Positions 1 to 7,591 of a DNA stretch of 7,591 bases are shown here, piece after piece (position 1 is the first letter of the stretch; each line of letters begins with the position of its first letter). The translations under genes and the position numbers were made by a program. A model generated the notes under the pieces. It saw only the letters and a program-made list of their open reading frames with translations. It was not told the DNA's origin and searched no databases. Source of the stretch: a bacterium. Lineage in GTDB: Bacteria; SM23-81; DAOVCL01. The stretch is from assembly GCA_029932675.1 (NCBI GenBank), contig JAOZPP010000046.1:1-7591 (forward strand). The letters run 5' to 3'.

Positions 1-74
1 AGGAGTTACGGTTTGCCATTAGGGAGGGGGGGAGGACAGTAGGAGCAGGTGTGGTTACCGAGGTGATAGAGTAG
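1..74 (+). CDS. tuf: Elongation factor Tu, 3' end (partial)
   Basis: The first 74 bases hold the last 23 codons of EF-Tu, the GTPase that delivers aminoacyl-tRNA to the ribosome. Reading from base 3 gives [16 protein letters not shown] followed by VVTEVIE and a TAG stop at 72-74. This matches the strongly conserved EF-Tu C-terminus (domain 3). The body of the gene lies upstream of the window. The stop codon overlaps the rpsJ Shine-Dalgarno sequence, and rpsJ begins 10 bases later, so the two are almost certainly co-transcribed as in the classical str-S10 arrangement. A run of seven G lies at 26-32 within the Gly-Gly codons. The identification rests on a short but highly diagnostic peptide. 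Confidence 0.93.
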
Positions 75-84
75 GAGGGAAGAA

Positions 85-393
85 TTGCCAGGTGAGAAGA
101 TAAGGATAAGACTAAAGGCTTACGATCATGTGATGCTCGACCGCTCTGCCAAGGAGATCGTCAGGGCAGCCAAGAGAACTGGGGCTAAGGTCTTAGGACC
201 CATTCCCCTACCCACTAAAAGGTCCGTTTATACGGTCCTCCGTTCCCCCCATGTGGATAAGAAGTCCCGCGAGCAGTTCGAGACTAGAATCCATAAAAGG
301 TTGATAGATATAGAAGATACAACTCCTCAGACGGTAGACTCACTGATGAAATTGGACCTTCCAGCAGGGGTTGATGTGGAGATAAGGGTTTGA
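85..393 (+). CDS. rpsJ: 30S ribosomal protein S10
   Basis: S10 sits in the head of the small subunit and in many bacteria also works as NusE in antitermination. The 102 residues match the family length. Conserved blocks are visible: [10 protein letters not shown] near the start, GPIPLPT in the middle, [13 protein letters not shown] and HKRLIDI after it, and LPAGVDVEI at the C-terminus. The start is a TTG at 85, chosen because AGGAGG at 73-78 lies six bases upstream and no ATG fits the conserved N-terminus. There is only a 10-base gap after tuf, so there is no room for an E. coli-type S10 leader here. The rplC start follows the stop by three bases. Confidence 0.98.
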
Positions 394-396
394 GGG

Positions 397-1020
397 ATGA
401 AGGGATTGATTGGCAAAAAGTTAGGGATGACCACTATATTTAGGGAGGATGGCAGATCCCTGCCGGTGACTTTGGTTGAGGCTGGTCCTTGCCGGGTTGT
501 GCAGGTGAAGACCGAGGAAGTCGATGGATATAACGCCCTCCAATTGGGTTTTGAACCCATCAAGGAGAAGAGGGTGAACAAGCCGCTCTTAGGCCATTTC
601 AAACGGGCAGGAACTAGCCCTTATCGGGTATTGAGGGAATTTAGGGATTGGGGGGGGGAGGTGAAATTGGGTTCAGAGATAAAGGTGGACATCTTCTCCC
701 CGGGGGATACCGTGGATGTAATTGGGATATCCAAAGGGAAGGGGTTTGCCGGAGTGGTGAAGAGGCATGGTTTTCGAGGGGGACCGAAGACTCATGGGCA
801 ATCAGATCGTTATCGGGCCCCTGGCTCAATTGGTGCCTCCTCCAATCCCTCACGGGTGTTTAAGGGAACAAAGATGGCGGGAAGGCTTGGAGGGAAGAGG
901 GTGACTGTGCGTAACCTGGTATTGGCCGATGTAGACCCGGGCAAGAACCTTTTGGCCATAAAGGGGCCAATTCCAGGTCCTCCTAAGGGTTATGTGATTA
1001 TAAGGAAAGGTCCACGATGA
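397..1020 (+). CDS. rplC: 50S ribosomal protein L3
   Basis: L3 is an early-assembly protein of the large subunit that reaches toward the peptidyl-transferase centre. The 207 residues are typical of bacterial L3. The protein opens with [12 protein letters not shown] and carries the core [20 protein letters not shown] followed by [16 protein letters not shown], then [19 protein letters not shown]. At the loop where E. coli has the glutamine methylated by PrmB (GQNQTPGK) this protein reads GASSNPSR, so that Gln is absent, as in many other bacteria. The start is ATG at 397, three bases after the rpsJ stop, with AAGGG at 384-388 as a plausible ribosome site. A run of nine G at 650-658 encodes Trp-Gly-Gly. 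The frame is intact on both sides of it. Confidence 0.98.
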
Positions 1021-1643
1021 AGGAGATCCCGAGCTACTCTTTGAGCGGTGAAGAGGTGGGTAGGATTGGGCTGCCGGAAGAGATCTTCGACATCGAGCCA
1101 AACCAGGGAGCCCTCCATGCATACTTTAATGTTTACCTCTACAACCAAGGTCAAGGTACTGCGGCGACCAAGGGACGTTCCCAGCTTAAGGGTGGGGGAG
1201 CTAAGCCCTGGAGACAGAAGGGAACGGGTAGAGCGAGGGCTGGGACATCCAACTCCCCTATATGGGTAGGGGGAGGTAGAGTCTTTGGGCCGTCCCCCCG
1301 ACCCCGACATAGGGAAGTTCCTAAGAAAGTGAGGAGGTTAGCCCTTAAGTCGGCATTATCCTTATTGGCCAAGAGGGATGCTATCCTTGGATTGGAGGAG
1401 ACGAAAGTTGACCCCCCAAAGACGAGGATATTTGCTGCCTTTCTGAGTAAAGTGGGGTTGCAGGACAAAAGGGGACTTCTTTTGGTTAGATCCAGCGATC
1501 AAAACCTCACCCGCTCAACCTCTAACTTACCTGGCCTTAAGCTGAGGAGAGCTACAGATGTTAATGCCTATGATCTACTCAATTCCGATTTCCTTATCCT
1601 TACTGAAGAGTCTGTGACCGCTCTCCGGGAGGTTTTGCAGTGA
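1017..1643 (+). CDS. rplD: 50S ribosomal protein L4
   Basis: L4 is a core large-subunit protein whose extended loop lines the nascent-peptide exit tunnel opposite L22. In enterobacteria it also represses its own operon. The 208 residues are the normal length. The hallmark loop is clear: [20 protein letters not shown], then [23 protein letters not shown], roughly at residues 50-95. The C-terminal half is more variable, as is usual in the family. The ATG at 1017 overlaps the rplC stop as ATGA, and AAGGAAAGG at 1002-1010 provides a ribosome site six bases upstream. No L4-responsive leader is visible in the window, so L4 autoregulation cannot be argued from this sequence. Confidence 0.98.
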
Positions 1644-1927
1644 GAAATCCAAGGGCAATTATTAGGAGGCCTTATCGCACAGAGAAGACTGAGAACTTGA
1701 AGGAATCGAGCCACCAATATGCCTTTGTCGTTGACCCAAAGGCCAACAAGATAGAGGTGAAGTGGGCAGTGGAGAAGCTCTTTCGGGTAAGCGTCCTGGA
1801 TGTGCAGACTATGGTTATGAAGGGGAAACCGAAGAGGATGGGGAGATTTGAGGGTAGGCGACCAAATTGGAAGAAGGCCCTGGTCACGCTTAAGGAAGGT
1901 GATACGATAGATATATTTGAGGGGTAG
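1640..1927 (+). CDS. rplW: 50S ribosomal protein L23
   Basis: L23 lies at the exit of the peptide tunnel and is the docking site for trigger factor and the signal recognition particle. The 95 residues begin [17 protein letters not shown] and contain YAFVVDPKANKIEVKWAVEK, then FRVSVLDVQTMVMKGKPKR and the terminal KKALVTLKEGDTIDIFEG, all family features. The start is a GTG at 1640 that overlaps the rplD stop as GTGA. GGGAGG at 1627-1632, seven bases upstream, supports it. Unlike the preceding junctions, a 158-base spacer follows before rplB. Confidence 0.97.
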   Translation: MRNPRAIIRRPYRTEKTENLKESSHQYAFVVDPKANKIEVKWAVEKLFRVSVLDVQTMVMKGKPKRMGRFEGRRPNWKKALVTLKEGDTIDIFEG

Positions 1928-2085
1928 GGGATGGTTACAACCTCAATCGGAAAGTATGGGAAAGGGCAATTTCTAAGTGTCTAAGAACATAAAGGGAAAA
2001 CAAACTATTGATCCGTTTTTCGAATTTGCCTTTAAGTCTAAAAGTAAAAGATTAGAGAGGAAGCAGTTAAAATAATAGAGGAACT
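1928..2085 (+). other. AT-rich spacer between rplW and rplB
   Basis: These 158 bases separate two genes that are normally nearly contiguous. The stretch from about 1965 to 2080 is clearly richer in A and T than the flanking genes. I see no conserved coding potential, only a 17-codon reading frame from an ATG at 1931. No strong stem-loop with a T-run is present. Promoter-like pieces are weak: TTGATC at 2008-2013 and TAAAAT at 2068-2073 are not correctly spaced as a pair. AGAGGA at 2077-2082 is the probable rplB ribosome site, although its three-base gap to the ATG is short. The spacer could hold an internal promoter or a processing site, but neither is proven. Confidence 0.6.
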
Positions 2086-2907
2086 ATGGCTGTTAAGAAG
2101 TTAAATCCAATAACTCCGGGGATGAGGTTTAAGACATCCCATACATTTGAGGAGTTAACCAGGGCTCAGCCGGAAAAGTCACTCCTTCGCCCTTTGAAGA
2201 AGTCAGGTGGTCGGAACAACAAGGGAAGGATAACCATTCGCCATCGAGGAGGGGGACATAAGAGACGCTACCGGATAATAGACTTTAAGAGGGATAAGCT
2301 GGGCATCCCGGCCAAGGTGGTTTCCATTGAGTATGATCCCAACCGCTCGGCGAGGATCGCCTTGCTCAACTATGTTGATGGGGAGAAAAGGTACATAATC
2401 GCCCCTTTAGGACTAAAGGTGGGAGCGGTGATCAATTCCGGGCCGGAAGCGGAGATCAAGGTAGGTAACTTCCTCCCTTTGGAAAAAGTGCCTATGGGCA
2501 CTATCGTGCATAATGTAGAGCTTAAACCGGGAAAGGGGGGACAGTTGGTGAGGGGGGCAGGTGCTGGGGCTCAGGTGGTGGCTAAGGAGGGGGAGTGGGT
2601 GCAGTTGAGGCTCCCCTCTGGAGAGGTGCGTAACTTTTCCTCCCGCTGTGGCGCTACTATTGGCTCGGTGGGGAATCCCGATCATGAGAAGATATCCTTT
2701 GGTACTGCGGGGAAGACTCGTTGGTTGGGTCGCAGGCCAAAGGTCAGGGGTGTGGCGATGAATCCTGTTGATCACCCTTTGGGTGGTGGGGAGGGGAAGA
2801 GCTCTGGGGGAAGACATCCGACTACCCCCTGGGGTGTGCCCACTAAGGGGTATAAGACCAGAAGGAAGAAGCCATCAGATAAGTTGATCGTCAGGAGGAG
2901 GAAGTAA
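2086..2907 (+). CDS. rplB: 50S ribosomal protein L2
   Basis: L2 is the most conserved large-subunit protein, needed for subunit association and near the peptidyl-transferase centre. It is 273 residues, the same length as the E. coli protein. The N-terminal part carries [20 protein letters not shown] (about residues 42-61), an RNA-binding OB-fold region follows, and the C-terminal domain contains [13 protein letters not shown]. The His implicated in activity in E. coli (first His of the DHP motif, here H230) is kept, but the second His of the usual DHPHGGGEG is Leu, a position that is Met in some Bacteroidetes and Chlorobi proteins. The tail [20 protein letters not shown] ends in IVRRRK. The ATG at 2086 follows AGAGGA at 2077-2082. 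Confidence 0.98.
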
Positions 2908-3195
2908 ATGGCCAGATCAGTGAAGAAAGGGCCCTATGTTGATCCAAAACTATTGAAGAAGATCAAACAGCTCAATGAATCCGGGCAGAAAAAGGTGATT
3001 AAGACTTGGTCGCGACGCTCGACCATAACCCCGGAATTTGTTGGCCATACCCTGGCCATTCATAACGGCAATAAATTTATACCTGTATATATCTCGGAGA
3101 ATTTGGTGGGCCACAAATTAGGTGAGTTTGCTCCCACTCGTATCTTTCGGGGGCATAGCGGGAGGATAACGGAACGGGCAACTGCTCCAAAGTGA
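2908..3195 (+). CDS. rpsS: 30S ribosomal protein S19
   Basis: S19 binds 16S rRNA in the head of the small subunit next to S13 and contacts the A-site finger. The 95 residues are standard. [19 protein letters not shown] opens the protein, [20 protein letters not shown] forms the conserved core, and [18 protein letters not shown] closes it. The ATG at 2908 directly follows the rplB stop codon. The purine-rich AGGAGGAGG starting at 2893, inside the end of rplB, supplies a strong ribosome site. The stop overlaps the start region of rplV. Confidence 0.98.
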
Positions 3196-3542
3196 TGGAA
3201 GCGATTGCTATAGCAAAATATCAGAGGATCTCCCCCCATAAGCTGCGCAGATATGTAGACCTAATTAGGGGGAAGGATGTAGATACTGCTCTTCGGATAT
3301 TGCAGTTTACTCCACGACGCCCCTCAAGGTTCTTGGAGAAGGTGATAAAATCTGCTGTAGCTAATGCTCTCAATATTGAAGGGAGCTCAAAGCTGAATGT
3401 CGAGGACCTGTTTATCAAGAGGGCTGTAGTAGATGAGGGGCCGACTATGAAGCGGTTTCGGCCCCAAACAATGGGGAGGGTAGTGCGGATAAGGAGAAGG
3501 ACGAGCCATATTACCGTTGTGGTCTCTGATACCGAAGATTAG
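3192..3542 (+). CDS. rplV: 50S ribosomal protein L22
   Basis: L22 lines the exit tunnel with L4, and its beta-hairpin is a site of macrolide-resistance changes in other bacteria. The 116 residues include [19 protein letters not shown], then [11 protein letters not shown], and the hairpin region [20 protein letters not shown] with the terminal ITVVVSD. All are intact. Two starts are adjacent: GTG at 3192, overlapping the rpsS stop as GTGA, and ATG at 3195. They differ by one residue and the sequence does not decide between them. There is no clear Shine-Dalgarno sequence, so translation is probably coupled to rpsS. A 102-base spacer with repeats follows. Confidence 0.97.
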
Positions 3543-3644
3543 CTAATTTATAGACGGGAAGGACAGGATATAAAAACCGAGTAAATCCTGTTCATCCTGC
3601 CAGAAAAGTTCCGCCAGAGGCGGCTAAATTTAAGGAGGGGATGT
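3543..3644. repeat. rplV-rpsC spacer with short repeats and a hairpin
   Basis: This spacer holds 9-base direct repeats ending in ATCCTG (TAAATCCTG at 3582-3590, TTCATCCTG at 3591-3599). They face an inverted partner ACAGGAT at 3563-3569, which can pair with ATCCTGT at 3585-3591. Downstream, CCGCC at 3611-3615 and GGCGG at 3619-3623 form a perfect five-base stem with an AGA loop. The style, with CAGGAT-type units in both orientations, resembles dispersed intergenic repeats found in many environmental bacterial genomes. That resemblance comes from memory and was not searched. There is no T-run, so this is not a standard terminator. The last part, AGGAGG at 3633-3638, is the rpsC ribosome site. 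Confidence 0.6.
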
Positions 3645-4295
3645 TTGGGACAGAAAACCCATCCAGTGGGATTTAGGTTAAAGATCAACAAGAGTTGGCA
3701 GTCGAAGTGGTTTGCCAAGAAGGATTTCTCTCGGCTCCTGCAAGAGGACTTGATGATTAGGGCATACATCAAGAACAGGCTGAGAAATGCGGAGGTTTCC
3801 ACTGTGGAGATTACCAGAACCCCGAAGAAGATTACCATAAATTTGCATACTGCCAGACCAGGGGTGGTGATTGGCCGCAAAGGGATCGAGGTGGAGAAGC
3901 TGAAGGGGGAACTGCAACACTTGGCCAAGAGAGAGATAGTGCTTAACATATTGGAGATTAAAAGGCCAGAGTTGGATGCACAACTTGTTGCTGAGAATAT
4001 AGCCCGCCAATTGGAGGGAAGGGTATTCTTCCGGCGAGCGATGAAGAAGGCAGTGGCCTCGGCAATGAGGATGGGAGCTGCTGGGGTAAAGATCGCCTGT
4101 AAGGGGCGCATCGGTGGGGCGGAGATGTCCAGGAAGGAAGAGTATAAGGAGGGAAGGGTCCCTTTACATACATTGAGGGCGGATATTGATTATGGGGAGG
4201 CTACTGCTCATACGACCTACGGGTGTATTGGGGTGAAGGTTTGGATCTGTAAAGGGGAGGTCCTTCCCCAGAAGGCTGCTTCCTCTGGTCTCTAG
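3645..4295 (+). CDS. rpsC: 30S ribosomal protein S3
   Basis: S3 sits at the mRNA entry site of the 30S head and contributes to helicase activity. It is 216 residues, near the family norm. It starts [12 protein letters not shown], has a KH domain with the G-x-x-G loop in [17 protein letters not shown], and a C-terminal domain with [20 protein letters not shown] followed by [20 protein letters not shown]. The TTG at 3645 is chosen because it yields the canonical N-terminus and has AGGAGG at 3633-3638 six bases upstream. An ATG at 3641 is in another frame and soon meets a stop. The last codons fall in a strong stem-loop at 4279-4306. Confidence 0.98.
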
Positions 4296-4306
4296 GCCAG
4301 AGGAAG
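4279..4306 (+). promoter_or_regulatory. Perfect 10-bp stem-loop at the rpsC stop
   Basis: CTTCCTCTGG at 4279-4288 and CCAGAGGAAG at 4297-4306 are exact reverse complements. The eight-base loop TCTCTAGG contains the rpsC stop codon TAG (4293-4295). A smaller stem, CCTTC with GAAGG at 4262-4275, lies just upstream. No T-run follows, so a rho-independent terminator is unlikely, and rplP begins 50 bases after the stem. It could slow or process the mRNA, or protect the upstream message. The structure is seen directly but its function is inferred. Confidence 0.6.
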
Positions 4307-4355
4307 GTGAACCTTAAGGAAAGTTTCAACCGGGCAGAAGGAAAGGGGACGATTT

Positions 4356-4772
4356 ATGTTAATGCCGAAGAGGGTGAAATACCGAAAACAACAAAGGGGG
4401 AAGATGAGGGGCAAATCCTTAAGGGGTTCAGAAATAAGCTTTGGGGAATATGGAATTCAGGCCTTGGAACCCGCCTGGATAACGAACCGTCAAATTGAAG
4501 CGGCCAGGGTAGCAATGACCAGAAAAGTGAAGAGGGGGGGAAGGGTTTGGACAAGGATCTTCCCCGATAAGCCAGTTACGGTAAAGCCTGCGGAGACGAG
4601 GATGGGAAAGGGGAAGGGTTCACCGGAGTATTGGGTTGCGGTGGTCAAGCCGGGAAGGATCCTCTTTGAACTGGGTGGGGTTCCACGGGATCTGGCCAAG
4701 GAGGCCTTACTTTTGGCCTCTTATAAACTTCCTATAAAAACAAGGCTTATAACTTCTGAGGGAGTTCTATGA
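4356..4772 (+). CDS. rplP: 50S ribosomal protein L16
   Basis: L16 is a late-assembly large-subunit protein close to the A-site tRNA elbow. It has 138 residues. The N-terminus [19 protein letters not shown] is diagnostic. [20 protein letters not shown] and [18 protein letters not shown] follow, then [20 protein letters not shown], which includes the loop whose Arg is hydroxylated in E. coli. The ATG at 4356 is supported by the purine-rich AAGGAAAGGGG ending at 4348 and by the family start. A spacer of 60 bases with the stem-loop separates it from rpsC. The stop overlaps the rpmC start as ATGA. Confidence 0.98.
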
Positions 4773-5002
4773 AGCCAGAGAAGATGAGAGAACTTTCCAA
4801 AGAGGAGATCCTCCAGTTAGAAAGGGACCTCGATGAGGAAGTATTCAATCTAAGAATCCAAAACTTCCAGGGGAAACTGGAAAACCCAATAAGGCTGAGG
4901 GAGGCAAGGAGGGACTTAGCCAGGGTAAAGACCATCCTGCGAGAGGATGAGTTAGGGATAAGAACCTTGGCCGGTAAGGAGAAAGGTGATGTCAAAGAAT
5001 AG
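4769..5002 (+). CDS. rpmC: 50S ribosomal protein L29
   Basis: L29 is a small helical protein beside L23 at the tunnel exit. The 77 residues are slightly longer than the common 60-70, mainly through a charged C-terminal tail (GKEKGDVKE). Family features include [39 protein letters not shown] and [14 protein letters not shown], all predicted to be alpha-helical. The ATG at 4769 overlaps the rplP stop as ATGA, with GAGGGAG at 4758-4764 upstream. The 3' end overlaps the start of rpsQ by 14 bases. Confidence 0.96.
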
Positions 5003-5294
5003 GCAAGGGCGGAGGAGGATAAGGGTGGGAAGGGTAATGAAGAATAGGATGGATAAGACAGTCGTAGTAGCCGTGAAGAGGCTCTTCAAGCATCCCCTTT
5101 ATGGTAAGACGGTGCAGAAGACCTCAAGGCTTAAAGCCCATGATGAGAAGAACTTATGCCAAGTGGGGGATTTAGTGGCGGTAATGGAGACCAGACCGCT
5201 GAGTAAGGAGAAGAGGTGGAGGGTAGTGGAGATCTTGCAGAAGGAGAAGGCCGCGAAGGGAGTGGGGGATGATACAGGAGTACACCAGGCTTAA
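4989..5294 (+). CDS. rpsQ: 30S ribosomal protein S17
   Basis: S17 is a primary 16S rRNA binder with an OB fold in the body of the small subunit. The protein has 101 residues from this start. Conserved segments are [39 protein letters not shown] and [20 protein letters not shown]. An in-frame GTG lies directly before at 4986. I prefer ATG 4989 because AAGGAG at 4976-4981 is then seven bases away rather than four. The gene begins inside rpmC and its last 26 bases overlap rplN, making this one of the tightest parts of the cluster. Confidence 0.97.
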
Positions 5295-5637
5295 TGTGGC
5301 AGATAATTCTGGAGCCAGGATAGTCCAGTGCCTTAGGATTTTGGGGGGCTCGCGCCGCCGATTTGGCTCCATTGGTGACATCATCGTAGTTTCCGTGAAG
5401 AGTGCCCTCCCCGGGAGCCCGGTAAAGAAGGGGGACGTGGTAAAAGCGGTGGTAGTAAGGACGAAGAAGGAATTGCGGAGGGGTGATGGTTCCTATATTA
5501 GATTTGGGGATAACGCTGCTGTTTTGATCGACGATCAGAAGGAACCTAAGGGGACGAGAATCTTTGGGCCAGTAGCCCGGGAGTTGAGGGAGAAAGAGTT
5601 TATGAAGATCGTGTCATTAGCCCCTGAGGTTATATGA
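5269..5637 (+). CDS. rplN: 50S ribosomal protein L14
   Basis: L14 forms part of the intersubunit bridge region of the large subunit and is a binding site for the silencing factor RsfS in other bacteria. It has 122 residues, exactly the usual length. [40 protein letters not shown] and [20 protein letters not shown] are canonical blocks. The ATG at 5269 is preceded by AAGGGAG at 5256-5262 with a six-base gap. It starts inside rpsQ and its stop overlaps the rplX start as ATGA. Confidence 0.98.
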
Positions 5638-5945
5638 AGGTGAAGAAAGACGATACCGTAGTAATTACTAAGGGAGAGTATAAGGGGAAGACAGGTAAGG
5701 TATTGAAGGTCTTCCACAAGAAAGGCAGGCTGATAGTGGAAGGGGCAAACTTTGTCAAGCGGCACACAAGGCCAACGCAGACAAGGCAACAGGGAGGTAT
5801 ACTGCAGAAGGAGGCCCCGATCAGTGTGGCCAATGTTATGGTCTGGTGTGCCAATTGTGCCCGTGGGGTAAAGGTAGGAATAAAGATCCTTCCCGATGGG
5901 AGCAAGGCCCGCTACTGCAAAGGCTGTGGGGAGCTTTTAGGATGA
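5634..5945 (+). CDS. rplX: 50S ribosomal protein L24, zinc-ribbon-like form
   Basis: L24 is an assembly initiator of the large subunit and sits near the tunnel exit. Of its 103 residues, about 2-30 form the KOW motif ([20 protein letters not shown]). The middle has [18 protein letters not shown]. The C-terminal part holds two CxxC pairs, C72-C75 (WCANC) and C95-C98 (CKGC), which probably bind zinc. Such cysteine-bearing L24 proteins are known in several phyla, while E. coli L24 lacks them. The ATG at 5634 overlaps the rplN stop, with TGAGGT at 5625-5630. It is the last ribosomal gene in the window. The expected neighbour rplE does not follow. Confidence 0.97.
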
Positions 5946-6078
5946 TTCGTTGTTTAGGAAGGGTAAAAGGTGGGAATGTTGATTTTCTTACCGAGATATA
6001 ATCGGGTAGTTTAAGCGGAGAGACATAAATGTCTGTCCCTACAAAGCAGATACATAAGGCCTTAAGTTTGAGTAAGTT
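5946..6078. other. Spacer after rplX with palindromes
   Basis: This 133-base gap marks the break in the ribosomal cluster. It contains AGACAT-AA-ATGTCT at 6021-6034, a perfect palindrome around two bases. The arms extend to GGAGAGACAT (6017-6026) and ATGTCTGTCC (6029-6038) with one mismatch. A second perfect palindrome, TAAGGCCTTA, lies at 6055-6064. There is no T-run after either, so no ordinary rho-independent terminator is visible. A degraded mobile or REP-like repeat, a regulator site or a weak terminator are all possible. No coding region was recognised. Confidence 0.55.
5997..6002 (+). promoter_or_regulatory. Possible -10 box for the propeller gene
   Basis: The hexamer TATAAT matches the sigma-70-type -10 consensus exactly and lies about 77 bases upstream of the propeller gene start. 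No acceptable -35 box lies 16-18 bases upstream. The nearest candidate, TTGATT at 5979-5984, is only 12 bases away, which is too close. This is therefore a weak suggestion that the secreted-protein gene has its own promoter rather than relying on read-through from rplX. Confidence 0.25.
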
Positions 6079-7443
6079 ATGCCAATTAGTTATCAGTTGT
6101 TTGGCCAGGGTTTAAATAGGCTAAGTTTGGCTGTTTTGGGCGCTGGTTTTGTGGTGGTGTTTTTCCTTTTGGGACAGCCAAATGTCTCCAGGGCTGAGGG
6201 AGTCTGGGGTCCACAGCTACATTGGCCCCAAAGGTTACTTGGGGTCAGTTTCAGTGACACAAACAATGGCTGGGTAGTGGGGGACTCTGGGACTATTTTG
6301 CATACAAAGGATGGTGGGTTGAGCTGGGTTGAGCAGCTAAGTGGCACAGATGTTTCCCTGACCGCGGTCTGTTTTGTGGATTCTCTCAATGGATGGGTAG
6401 TGGGGGGTAGGGGAACCATTCTGCACACAAGCGATGGGGGAGATGAGTGGGTATTTCAAGATGGGGAGACGAATCTCTGGTTAGGGGATGTGGCCTTTGT
6501 GGATACGCTTTTGGGATGGGCTGTAGGGGATTCTGGGCTGATCCTTCATACCACCGACGGTGGCAGCAGTTGGTATCGCCAGAGATATGCAGATAAGCCG
6601 CTCTACACGGTCTTCTTCCTCGATTCCAAATGGGGTTGGGCGGGAGGAACTGGCCCTACATATGGTGGGGCAACAATCTTATACACCGAAGATGGTGGAA
6701 GAGGGTGGTATGAGGGAGAAGCCAATTTGCCTCTTTGCTATGGGATATACTTTGTTGATTCACTCAATGGTTGGGCAGTGGGGTGTAGTATGCCTCCCCA
6801 ACCGCCTCCCTGGTTGAGGCCGATAATTCATACCAGAAACGGAGGGGTGACCTGGTGTGATCAGGAGTATGAGGGCCACGCTATATATGACATCTTTATG
6901 GCTGATTTGTATAATGGTTGGGCAACAGGATGCTACTGTATCTTTCACACCAGCAATGGAGGTTACACCTGGGAGGGCTACTACGGTCCTGGCTTGTGGT
7001 GTTTGGGAAAACTTTCTTTCCCGGATCCTGATCATGGCTGGGTGGTGGCTACCTGGGCTTCATTTCCCATTGATTATATGGGGGCGGTTTTCTCCTATCG
7101 TAATAGCTCTGGTATAGAGGAGAGGGATTCCGAGCATAGAGGGGGTGAGAGTTTTGCCCTTCAGCAAAACTATCCTAATCCGTTTAACTCAAATACAGCT
7201 ATCAGCTATCAGTTATCAGCTATCAGGCCGCACCGCACCACCCTGAGAATCTATAACGTCTTGGGGCGAGAGGTTAGAACGCTGGTGAATGAACCACAGA
7301 AAAGAGGGTACTATAAGGTGATCTGGGATGGGAGGGATAACCGGGGGAAGGAGGTGAGCTCAGGGGTGTATTTCTGTAGGTTAGAGGTGATAGGTGGTGG
7401 GTTAAGGGAAACAAAGACGAGGAAGCTGATAGTACTGAGGTAA
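6079..7443 (+). CDS. Secreted Ycf48/BNR-like beta-propeller with type IX sorting-type C-terminal domain
   Basis: This 454-residue protein is predicted to be exported. Residues 1-39 look like a signal peptide (hydrophobic SLAVLGAGFVVVFFLLG, probable cleavage after SRA at 37-39). Residues about 53-340 form seven repeats of the type GWVVGDSGTILHTKDGGLSW, with Asp-boxes at 76, 117, 158, 203, 252 and 291. The seventh repeat is degenerate. This fits a seven-bladed propeller of the Ycf48/BNR type. Residues about 358-454 (FALQQNYPNPFN, IYNVLGREVRTLVN, WDGRD, SSGVYFCRL, KLIVLR) resemble the FlgD-like or type IX (Por) sorting domain that takes proteins across the outer membrane. Eight cysteines are present, seven in the propeller, including a CxC at 285-287. 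The ATG at 6079 has no good Shine-Dalgarno; TTG at 6097 aligns with the start of the next gene and is an alternative. The ligand or function is unknown. Confidence 0.88.
   Translation: MPISYQLFGQGLNRLSLAVLGAGFVVVFFLLGQPNVSRAEGVWGPQLHWPQRLLGVSFSDTNNGWVVGDSGTILHTKDGGLSWVEQLSGTDVSLTAVCFVDSLNGWVVGGRGTILHTSDGGDEWVFQDGETNLWLGDVAFVDTLLGWAVGDSGLILHTTDGGSSWYRQRYADKPLYTVFFLDSKWGWAGGTGPTYGGATILYTEDGGRGWYEGEANLPLCYGIYFVDSLNGWAVGCSMPPQPPPWLRPIIHTRNGGVTWCDQEYEGHAIYDIFMADLYNGWATGCYCIFHTSNGGYTWEGYYGPGLWCLGKLSFPDPDHGWVVATWASFPIDYMGAVFSYRNSSGIEERDSEHRGGESFALQQNYPNPFNSNTAISYQLSAIRPHRTTLRIYNVLGREVRTLVNEPQKRGYYKVIWDGRDNRGKEVSSGVYFCRLEVIGGGLRETKTRKLIVLR
6106..6201 (+). repeat. 96-bp direct repeat, copy A (signal-peptide region)
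   Basis: This segment of the first propeller gene is matched by 7496-7591 at a constant offset of 1390 bases. I count six differences over 96 bases, all in the first 40. From 6146 to 6201 the two copies are identical. It encodes the hydrophobic core and cleavage region of the signal peptide. The true length is unknown because copy B runs to the window end. Confidence 0.92.
6235..7098 (+). repeat. Seven degenerate propeller-blade repeats
   Basis: Within the propeller gene, units of about 33-46 codons repeat the pattern hydrophobic-x-x-V-x-F-x-D-x-x-x-GW-x-VG, then ILHT-x-DGG-x-x-W. The first three are closest to one another (GTILHTKDGG, GTILHTSDGG, GLILHTTDGG). Blade 4 has an inserted GPTYGG stretch, blade 5 a proline-rich loop (MPPQPPPWLRP), and blade 7 has lost its Asp-box. 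The repeat is a protein-level one; DNA identity between blades is modest. Confidence 0.8.
7195..7228. repeat. Heptad repeat (ATCAGCT)n inside the sorting domain
   Basis: From 7201 the heptads ATCAGCT, ATCAGTT and ATCAGCT run without a gap, flanked by partial units ACAGCT (7195-7200) and ATCAGGC (7222-7228). They stay in frame and encode AISYQLSAIR, so part of a conserved strand of the C-terminal domain is written in the repeat. Two more heptads of the same family, ATTAGTT and ATCAGTT, occupy 6085-6098 at the 5' end of the same gene and also encode ISYQL. Confidence 0.8.
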
Positions 7444-7486
7444 AAAAACTCAAAAATTTCAATCTCCTTAAAGGGAAGGATACCTG

Positions 7487-7591
7487 ATGTTTCGACAGGA
7501 TTTAAATAGGCCAAGTTTGGCTGTTTGGTGTGCTGTTTTTGTGGTGGTGTTTTTCCTTTTGGGACAGCCAAATGTCTCCAGGGCTGAGGGA
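7487..7591 (+). CDS. Second secreted protein, paralogous signal peptide (partial)
   Basis: An ATG at 7487, behind the purine-rich AAGGGAAGGA at 7471-7480, opens a frame that stays open to the window end (35 codons). It reads MFRQDLNRPSLAVWCAVFVV and continues VFFLLGQPNVSRAEG, nearly the same signal peptide as the preceding gene, with the same SRA|E cleavage site. The gap to the preceding stop is 43 bases with no terminator, so the two are probably co-transcribed. A propeller plus sorting domain like its neighbour is a reasonable expectation, but the mature part is outside the window and cannot be seen. Confidence 0.82.
   Translation, partial: MFRQDLNRPSLAVWCAVFVVVFFLLGQPNVSRAEG
7496..7591 (+). 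repeat. 96-bp direct repeat, copy B
   Basis: This is the partner of 6106-6201. Bases 7536-7591 are identical to 6146-6201, and the earlier 40 bases carry six substitutions and no indel. Identity continues right up to the window edge, so the duplication may extend further. Confidence 0.92.

Follow-up and report, generated by a model that had tools for sequence, protein, structure and literature searches.

The ribosomal protein gene cluster of a bacterial draft genome (G000: 3.03 Mb in 116 contigs, 97% complete, 0.24% contamination) is interrupted within the spc operon, whose gene order is among the best conserved in bacteria. Our analysis indicates, with good though not full confidence, that three native T9SS cargo genes were inserted as an array between rplX and rplE in this lineage and are probably read through by the ribosomal transcript. 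The interruption is real and unusual, in that ordinary cargo genes break up a highly conserved operon, and we found no report of an insertion at the rplX-rplE junction in the open-access literature.

Interruption of the cluster between rplX and rplE

The window, that is, the whole stretch of DNA that was analysed (7,591 bases), comprises bases 1 to 7591 of a 23,259-base contig (C23). As the initial annotation had noted, gene order up to rplX is the textbook one: rpsJ-rplC-rplD-rplW-rplB-rpsS-rplV-rpsC-rplP-rpmC-rpsQ-rplN-rplX are all intact in the window and in standard order. The last ribosomal gene before the insert, rplX (uL24; 5634-5945, forward strand), is full length (Pfam ribosomal_L24, 1.1e-23). 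The initial annotation also had the cluster stopping at rplX and giving way to genes for exported proteins. The second half of that description stands, but the cluster does not end there. When the contig is extended in search of rplE-rpsN-rpsH, as had been proposed, the genes are found downstream of the array: rplE, the single L5 gene of the whole genome, lies at 12777-13316 on the same strand as rplX and is followed by rpsN, rpsH, rplF, rplR, rpsE, rpmD, rplO, secY and adk, and then by rpsM, rpsK, rpsD, rpoA and rplQ. Since rplE through rplQ resume on the same contig and strand, the ribosomal cluster is interrupted at rplX, neither ended nor truncated.

On the left the insert directly abuts the rplX stop codon and on the right the rplE start codon; the two codons are 6,831 bases apart as assembled, a 100-N scaffold gap included. 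Its components, in order along the forward strand, are: a 133-nt spacer; gene A (6079-7443); gene B (7487-8473); gene C (8506-12516); and a short open reading frame (12550-12750). The three cargo genes, A, B and C, share the strand of the ribosomal genes and are separated by 32-43 nt. Compared with an S10-spc-alpha cluster of the E. coli type, order and strand are alike from rpsJ to rplX and again from rplE to rplQ; the difference is the ~6.8 kb of non-ribosomal genes that separate rplX from rplE, so that rplE does not directly follow rplX in G000 as it does in the usual S10-spc layout.

That rplE normally follows rplX directly, an assumption of the initial annotation, is borne out by the compared genomes. 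In the single same-genus genome compared (G001), the two genes are ~1 nt apart (...GGTTAA, one or two bases, ATGGCT...), and in two further genomes of the phylum (G002 and G003) the spacing is 23 and 20 nt. Across 109 other genomes (29 relatives from 28 families, on which the breadth of the survey mainly rests, and 80 named genomes, mostly Firmicutes) the spacing has a median of 32 nt and reaches 233 nt at most. Set against this range, the ~6.83 kb in G000 means that chance is no issue for the separation of the two genes. Gene order was also to be compared in related genomes, and here the congener provides an empty site with colinear flanks. It is colinear with C23 over the whole block that starts at the end of the gene preceding rpsJ and finishes with rplQ; on the left side, homology reaches the final codons of rplX, and on the right side it picks up again at the rplE ATG.

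Among the genomes compared, the interruption thus appears confined to one species, and a single gain in the G000 lineage would be the simplest account. The possibility that this order is ordinary for the lineage, raised at the outset, is refuted by G001 and the two further phylum genomes. It is likewise barely conceivable that the ancestor of the phylum or genus already had the insertion and that the relatives later lost it: we found no point that supports such a history, rplX and rplE are adjacent in G001, G002, G003 and all more distant genomes, and repeated exact losses are less simple than one gain.

The inserted genes and the soundness of the assembly

Gene A encodes a 454-residue, predicted exported protein that combines a Ycf48/BNR propeller with a FlgD-Ig/T9SS type A C-terminal tail. 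The propeller matches PF14870 (3.7e-27) and contains six Asp-box motifs and seven GW motifs. The tail matches FlgD_ig (3.2e-8) and TIGR04183 (27.4 bits, cut-off 23), and scores 22.5 with Pfam PF18962, below the cut-off of 27. The N-terminus, LAVLGAGFVVVFFLLGQPNVSRAEG, is hydrophobic as judged by eye. Among solved structures, the nearest to the propeller repeats are Ycf48 proteins (8e-17). A and B resemble Ycf48/HCF136-type BNR propellers in having repeats that match PF14870 and the solved Ycf48 proteins, but they differ in the attached secretion tail and in a score far below the cut-off of the NCBIfam Ycf48 equivalog NF010237 (87.6 bits versus 326). We therefore rejected A and B as Ycf48 orthologues; the repeat type is alike, the protein different. 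A structure model of gene A, made without an alignment, was too poor for use (pLDDT 38.7). In both A and B, the secretion-tail coding sequence contains a AGCTATCAGCTATCAGTT-type simple repeat (AISYQLSAI; 7198-7227).

Gene B is a tandem paralogue of A. Its 5' part (7487-7591, forward strand) closes the window, and the gene runs on to 8473 over a 100-N scaffold gap at contig positions 7592-7691, where the window ends. The A and B proteins are 88% identical across 259 residues, and the nucleotide sequences are 86-94% identical in long stretches; the two propeller genes of the array are recently duplicated. A segment of 463 nt of A is not represented in B; at this point the assembly has 100 Ns. 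Since the difference of 363 nt keeps the frame, gene B is probably a full gene of ~450 codons.

The left and right halves of the insert are joined by scaffolding, which is the main remaining caveat, and duplicated sequence is where assembly typically fails. The initial annotation had left the choice between an inserted array and a split cluster. In the latter case, the spc cluster would have been split by rearrangement, for example by recombination between near-identical propeller genes, and its separate halves wrongly scaffolded across the gap in B. A 100-N gap inside a duplicated gene is indeed a typical site for bad joins, but the halves of B, taken together, make up one gene of the length of A, with 463 nt missing, which fits a short gap. 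On either side of the gap, moreover, the genes belong to the same cargo array and share one strand, and colinearity with G001 holds in the outer flanks. We consider a split of this kind unlikely. Insertion is strongly favoured, because the remaining spc and alpha genes continue on the contig and strand of rplX and because the congener has an empty site with colinear flanks; at the level of sequence, and subject to the one scaffold gap, it is established.

A further concern was a chimeric join at 5946-6078. The junctions rplX-A and C-rplE are both gap-free, and the two breaks coincide exactly with the stop of rplX and the start of rplE, which makes such a join unlikely at that site. More generally, an assembly artefact that placed unrelated cargo genes beside rplX and rplE seems very improbable. 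The genome is fragmented and a dispersed repeat is present at 6013-6087, but two independent joins, each in non-repeated sequence and each exactly at the end of one ribosomal gene or the start of the other, would be needed; in addition, rplX and rplE each occur once in the genome, with no alternative neighbour.

The initial annotation had counted at least two same-strand genes for exported proteins, and to A and B our analysis adds a third, larger one beyond the window. Gene C (1336 residues, forward strand) contains a C25-protease-like region, FG-GAP repeats, a right-handed beta-helix and a T9SS tail. Residues 119-460 score 28.8 bits with the C25 family domain PF01364 (cut-off 23), and candidate catalytic motifs, MSHS (His302) and SCTAGNF (Cys369), were found by eye; no significant sequence match of gene C to a solved C25 peptidase was found. 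The PF01364 match is what gene C has in common with peptidase family C25 (gingipain/PorU-like), and its continuation into FG-GAP repeats and a beta-helix is what sets it apart.

All three genes carry a FlgD-Ig/T9SS type A (Por-type) C-terminal sorting tail, and those of A and C score above the NCBIfam cut-off for the T9SS type A sorting domain (gene C: TIGR04183, 42.7 bits versus 23; PF18962, 30.8 versus 27). The genome also encodes the SprA translocon (SprA_N PF14349, 1.4e-37, in a 1930-residue frame), and SprA_N was absent from all 14 control genomes. In view of the sorting tails and of SprA, the products of the array would be exported and then displayed or released via T9SS, and the initial reading of the genes as outer-membrane cargo gains support on the same grounds. 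The array is like T9SS type A cargo (Por_Secre_tail, TIGR04183) in the tails of A, B and C and in the presence of SprA, and differs in that the genes lie inside a ribosomal operon, which is unusual. Several papers describe T9SS as confined to Bacteroidota.

Gene A has matches at 157 or more places in the genome, mostly in the tail (tail-bearing or propeller), and gene C finds its best relatives (51-70% identity) within its own genome rather than in G001. The cargo genes are native in GC content and codon usage, and neither measure supports a foreign origin of the array. Judged from these sequence comparisons, the insert is an array from the organism's own large T9SS cargo family.

Transcription, translation and control across the insert

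The insert may be tolerated because the transcript can read through it: the cargo genes are on the same strand, the gaps between them are only 32-43 nt, and neither terminators nor promoters are in excess. Terminator-like sites number 6, versus 6.3 expected from shuffled sequences, and promoter-like sites 7, versus 9.0 expected. The ribosomal transcript would thus continue through the array from the ribosomal promoter, and the usual translational coupling of rplE to rplX would be lost. Within the 260 nt before rplE, the short open reading frame (12550-12750) comprises 66 codons and has a signal-like N-terminus; no relative of it was found. Its TAA overlaps an in-frame ATG (TAATG, 12748-12752) that precedes the conserved rplE start by 27 nt, and this 66-codon leader could restore translational coupling to rplE. 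At the rplE start, a search of Rfam gave no meaningful match.

Operon control in E. coli acts at the rplX-rplE junction. The natural insertion of ~7 kb in G000 suggests that the two sides of this junction can come apart in a living lineage, and it provides a natural test of how rplN-rplX and the genes from rplE onwards keep their balance. In E. coli, uS8 binds the rplE initiation region, which adjoins the rplX-rplE junction, and rplN-rplX are retroregulated from that region through mRNA destabilisation (PMC10931766); the same review describes spc control in B. subtilis and other species as still unknown. If uS8-type control exists in this organism, the insert would fall on the rplX side of its site.

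If the cargo genes are truly co-transcribed with the ribosomal genes, the supply of surface proteins would be linked to ribosome production. Growth-linked expression of the cargo is possible, and codon usage gives it no support in a genome where ribosomal codon bias is weak. The codon-usage scores of A, B and C (0.69, 0.70 and 0.67) are like those of the other tail genes (0.683 +/- 0.019), so that we set aside an adaptation of the cargo codons to high expression, although the test is a weak one with ribosomal genes themselves ranging from 0.64 to 0.77. It is doubtful that the insertion was selected, in the sense that placing the cargo under ribosomal promoters and feedback would let T9SS propeller and protease output follow growth rate while rplE gains a leader-coupled start.

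Insert ends, arrival of the array and other spacers of the cluster

The spacer on the left side of the insert consists of two parts. The first 67 nt (5946-6012, forward strand) form the left end of the insert and contain a weak hairpin at ~5991-6006 (fold -6.8 kcal/mol); almost all genome matches of the spacer are in its positions 66-133. The palindromes recognised in the initial annotation belong to the second part, a degenerate and truncated copy of a dispersed palindromic repeat (6013-6087, forward strand) whose full form is ~132 nt with two hairpins; repeats of this class elsewhere do not match the first 67 nt. This repeat has 42 matches in G000, 24 in G001 and none in G002 or G003, and thus appears genus-specific among the compared genomes. 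Rfam gave no match at 6013-6087, nor any other in the contig's first 20 kb. The repeat copy supplies the annotated ATG and the first codons of gene A, and the ATG of gene B aligns with gene A codon 7, a TTG at 6097; on both counts, the repeat has probably replaced the original upstream region of gene A.

The most likely source of the array is another place in the same genome, and the route may have been repeat-associated or illegitimate recombination. It is highly unlikely to be a true mobile element with transposition or integration functions of its own. Although it forms a discrete block at an empty site, with a dispersed repeat flanking one side, no transposase or integrase was found among the open reading frames examined, no tRNA was found, and the insert ends show neither a target-site duplication nor a terminal inverted repeat. 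The two ends have no direct words of 7 nt or longer in common and a single 7-nt inverted match. No second copy of the block, and no donor, was found in the genome.

Several other spacers of the cluster also carry repeats or vary in length. The rplV-rpsC spacer (3543-3644) contains a dispersed repeat of the ACAGGAT type, with 11 matches in G000 and 15 in G001; in G001, a repeat of this type is instead in the rpsC-rplP spacer. The congener (contig C117) has extra spacers of ~170 nt at rplE-rpsN and rpsE-rpmD, which are not present in that form in G000, and both have CCGTGAGATTCCGTGGT close to their ends, as a miniature inserted repeat would. The occurrence of different short repeats at different junctions in the two species suggests that the cluster spacers of this genus are unusually open to insertion. 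The rplW-rplB spacer (1928-2085) is also long, with 158 nt in G000 and 178 nt in G001 versus 43 and 52 nt in G002 and G003, and its sequence looks different between the two congeners.
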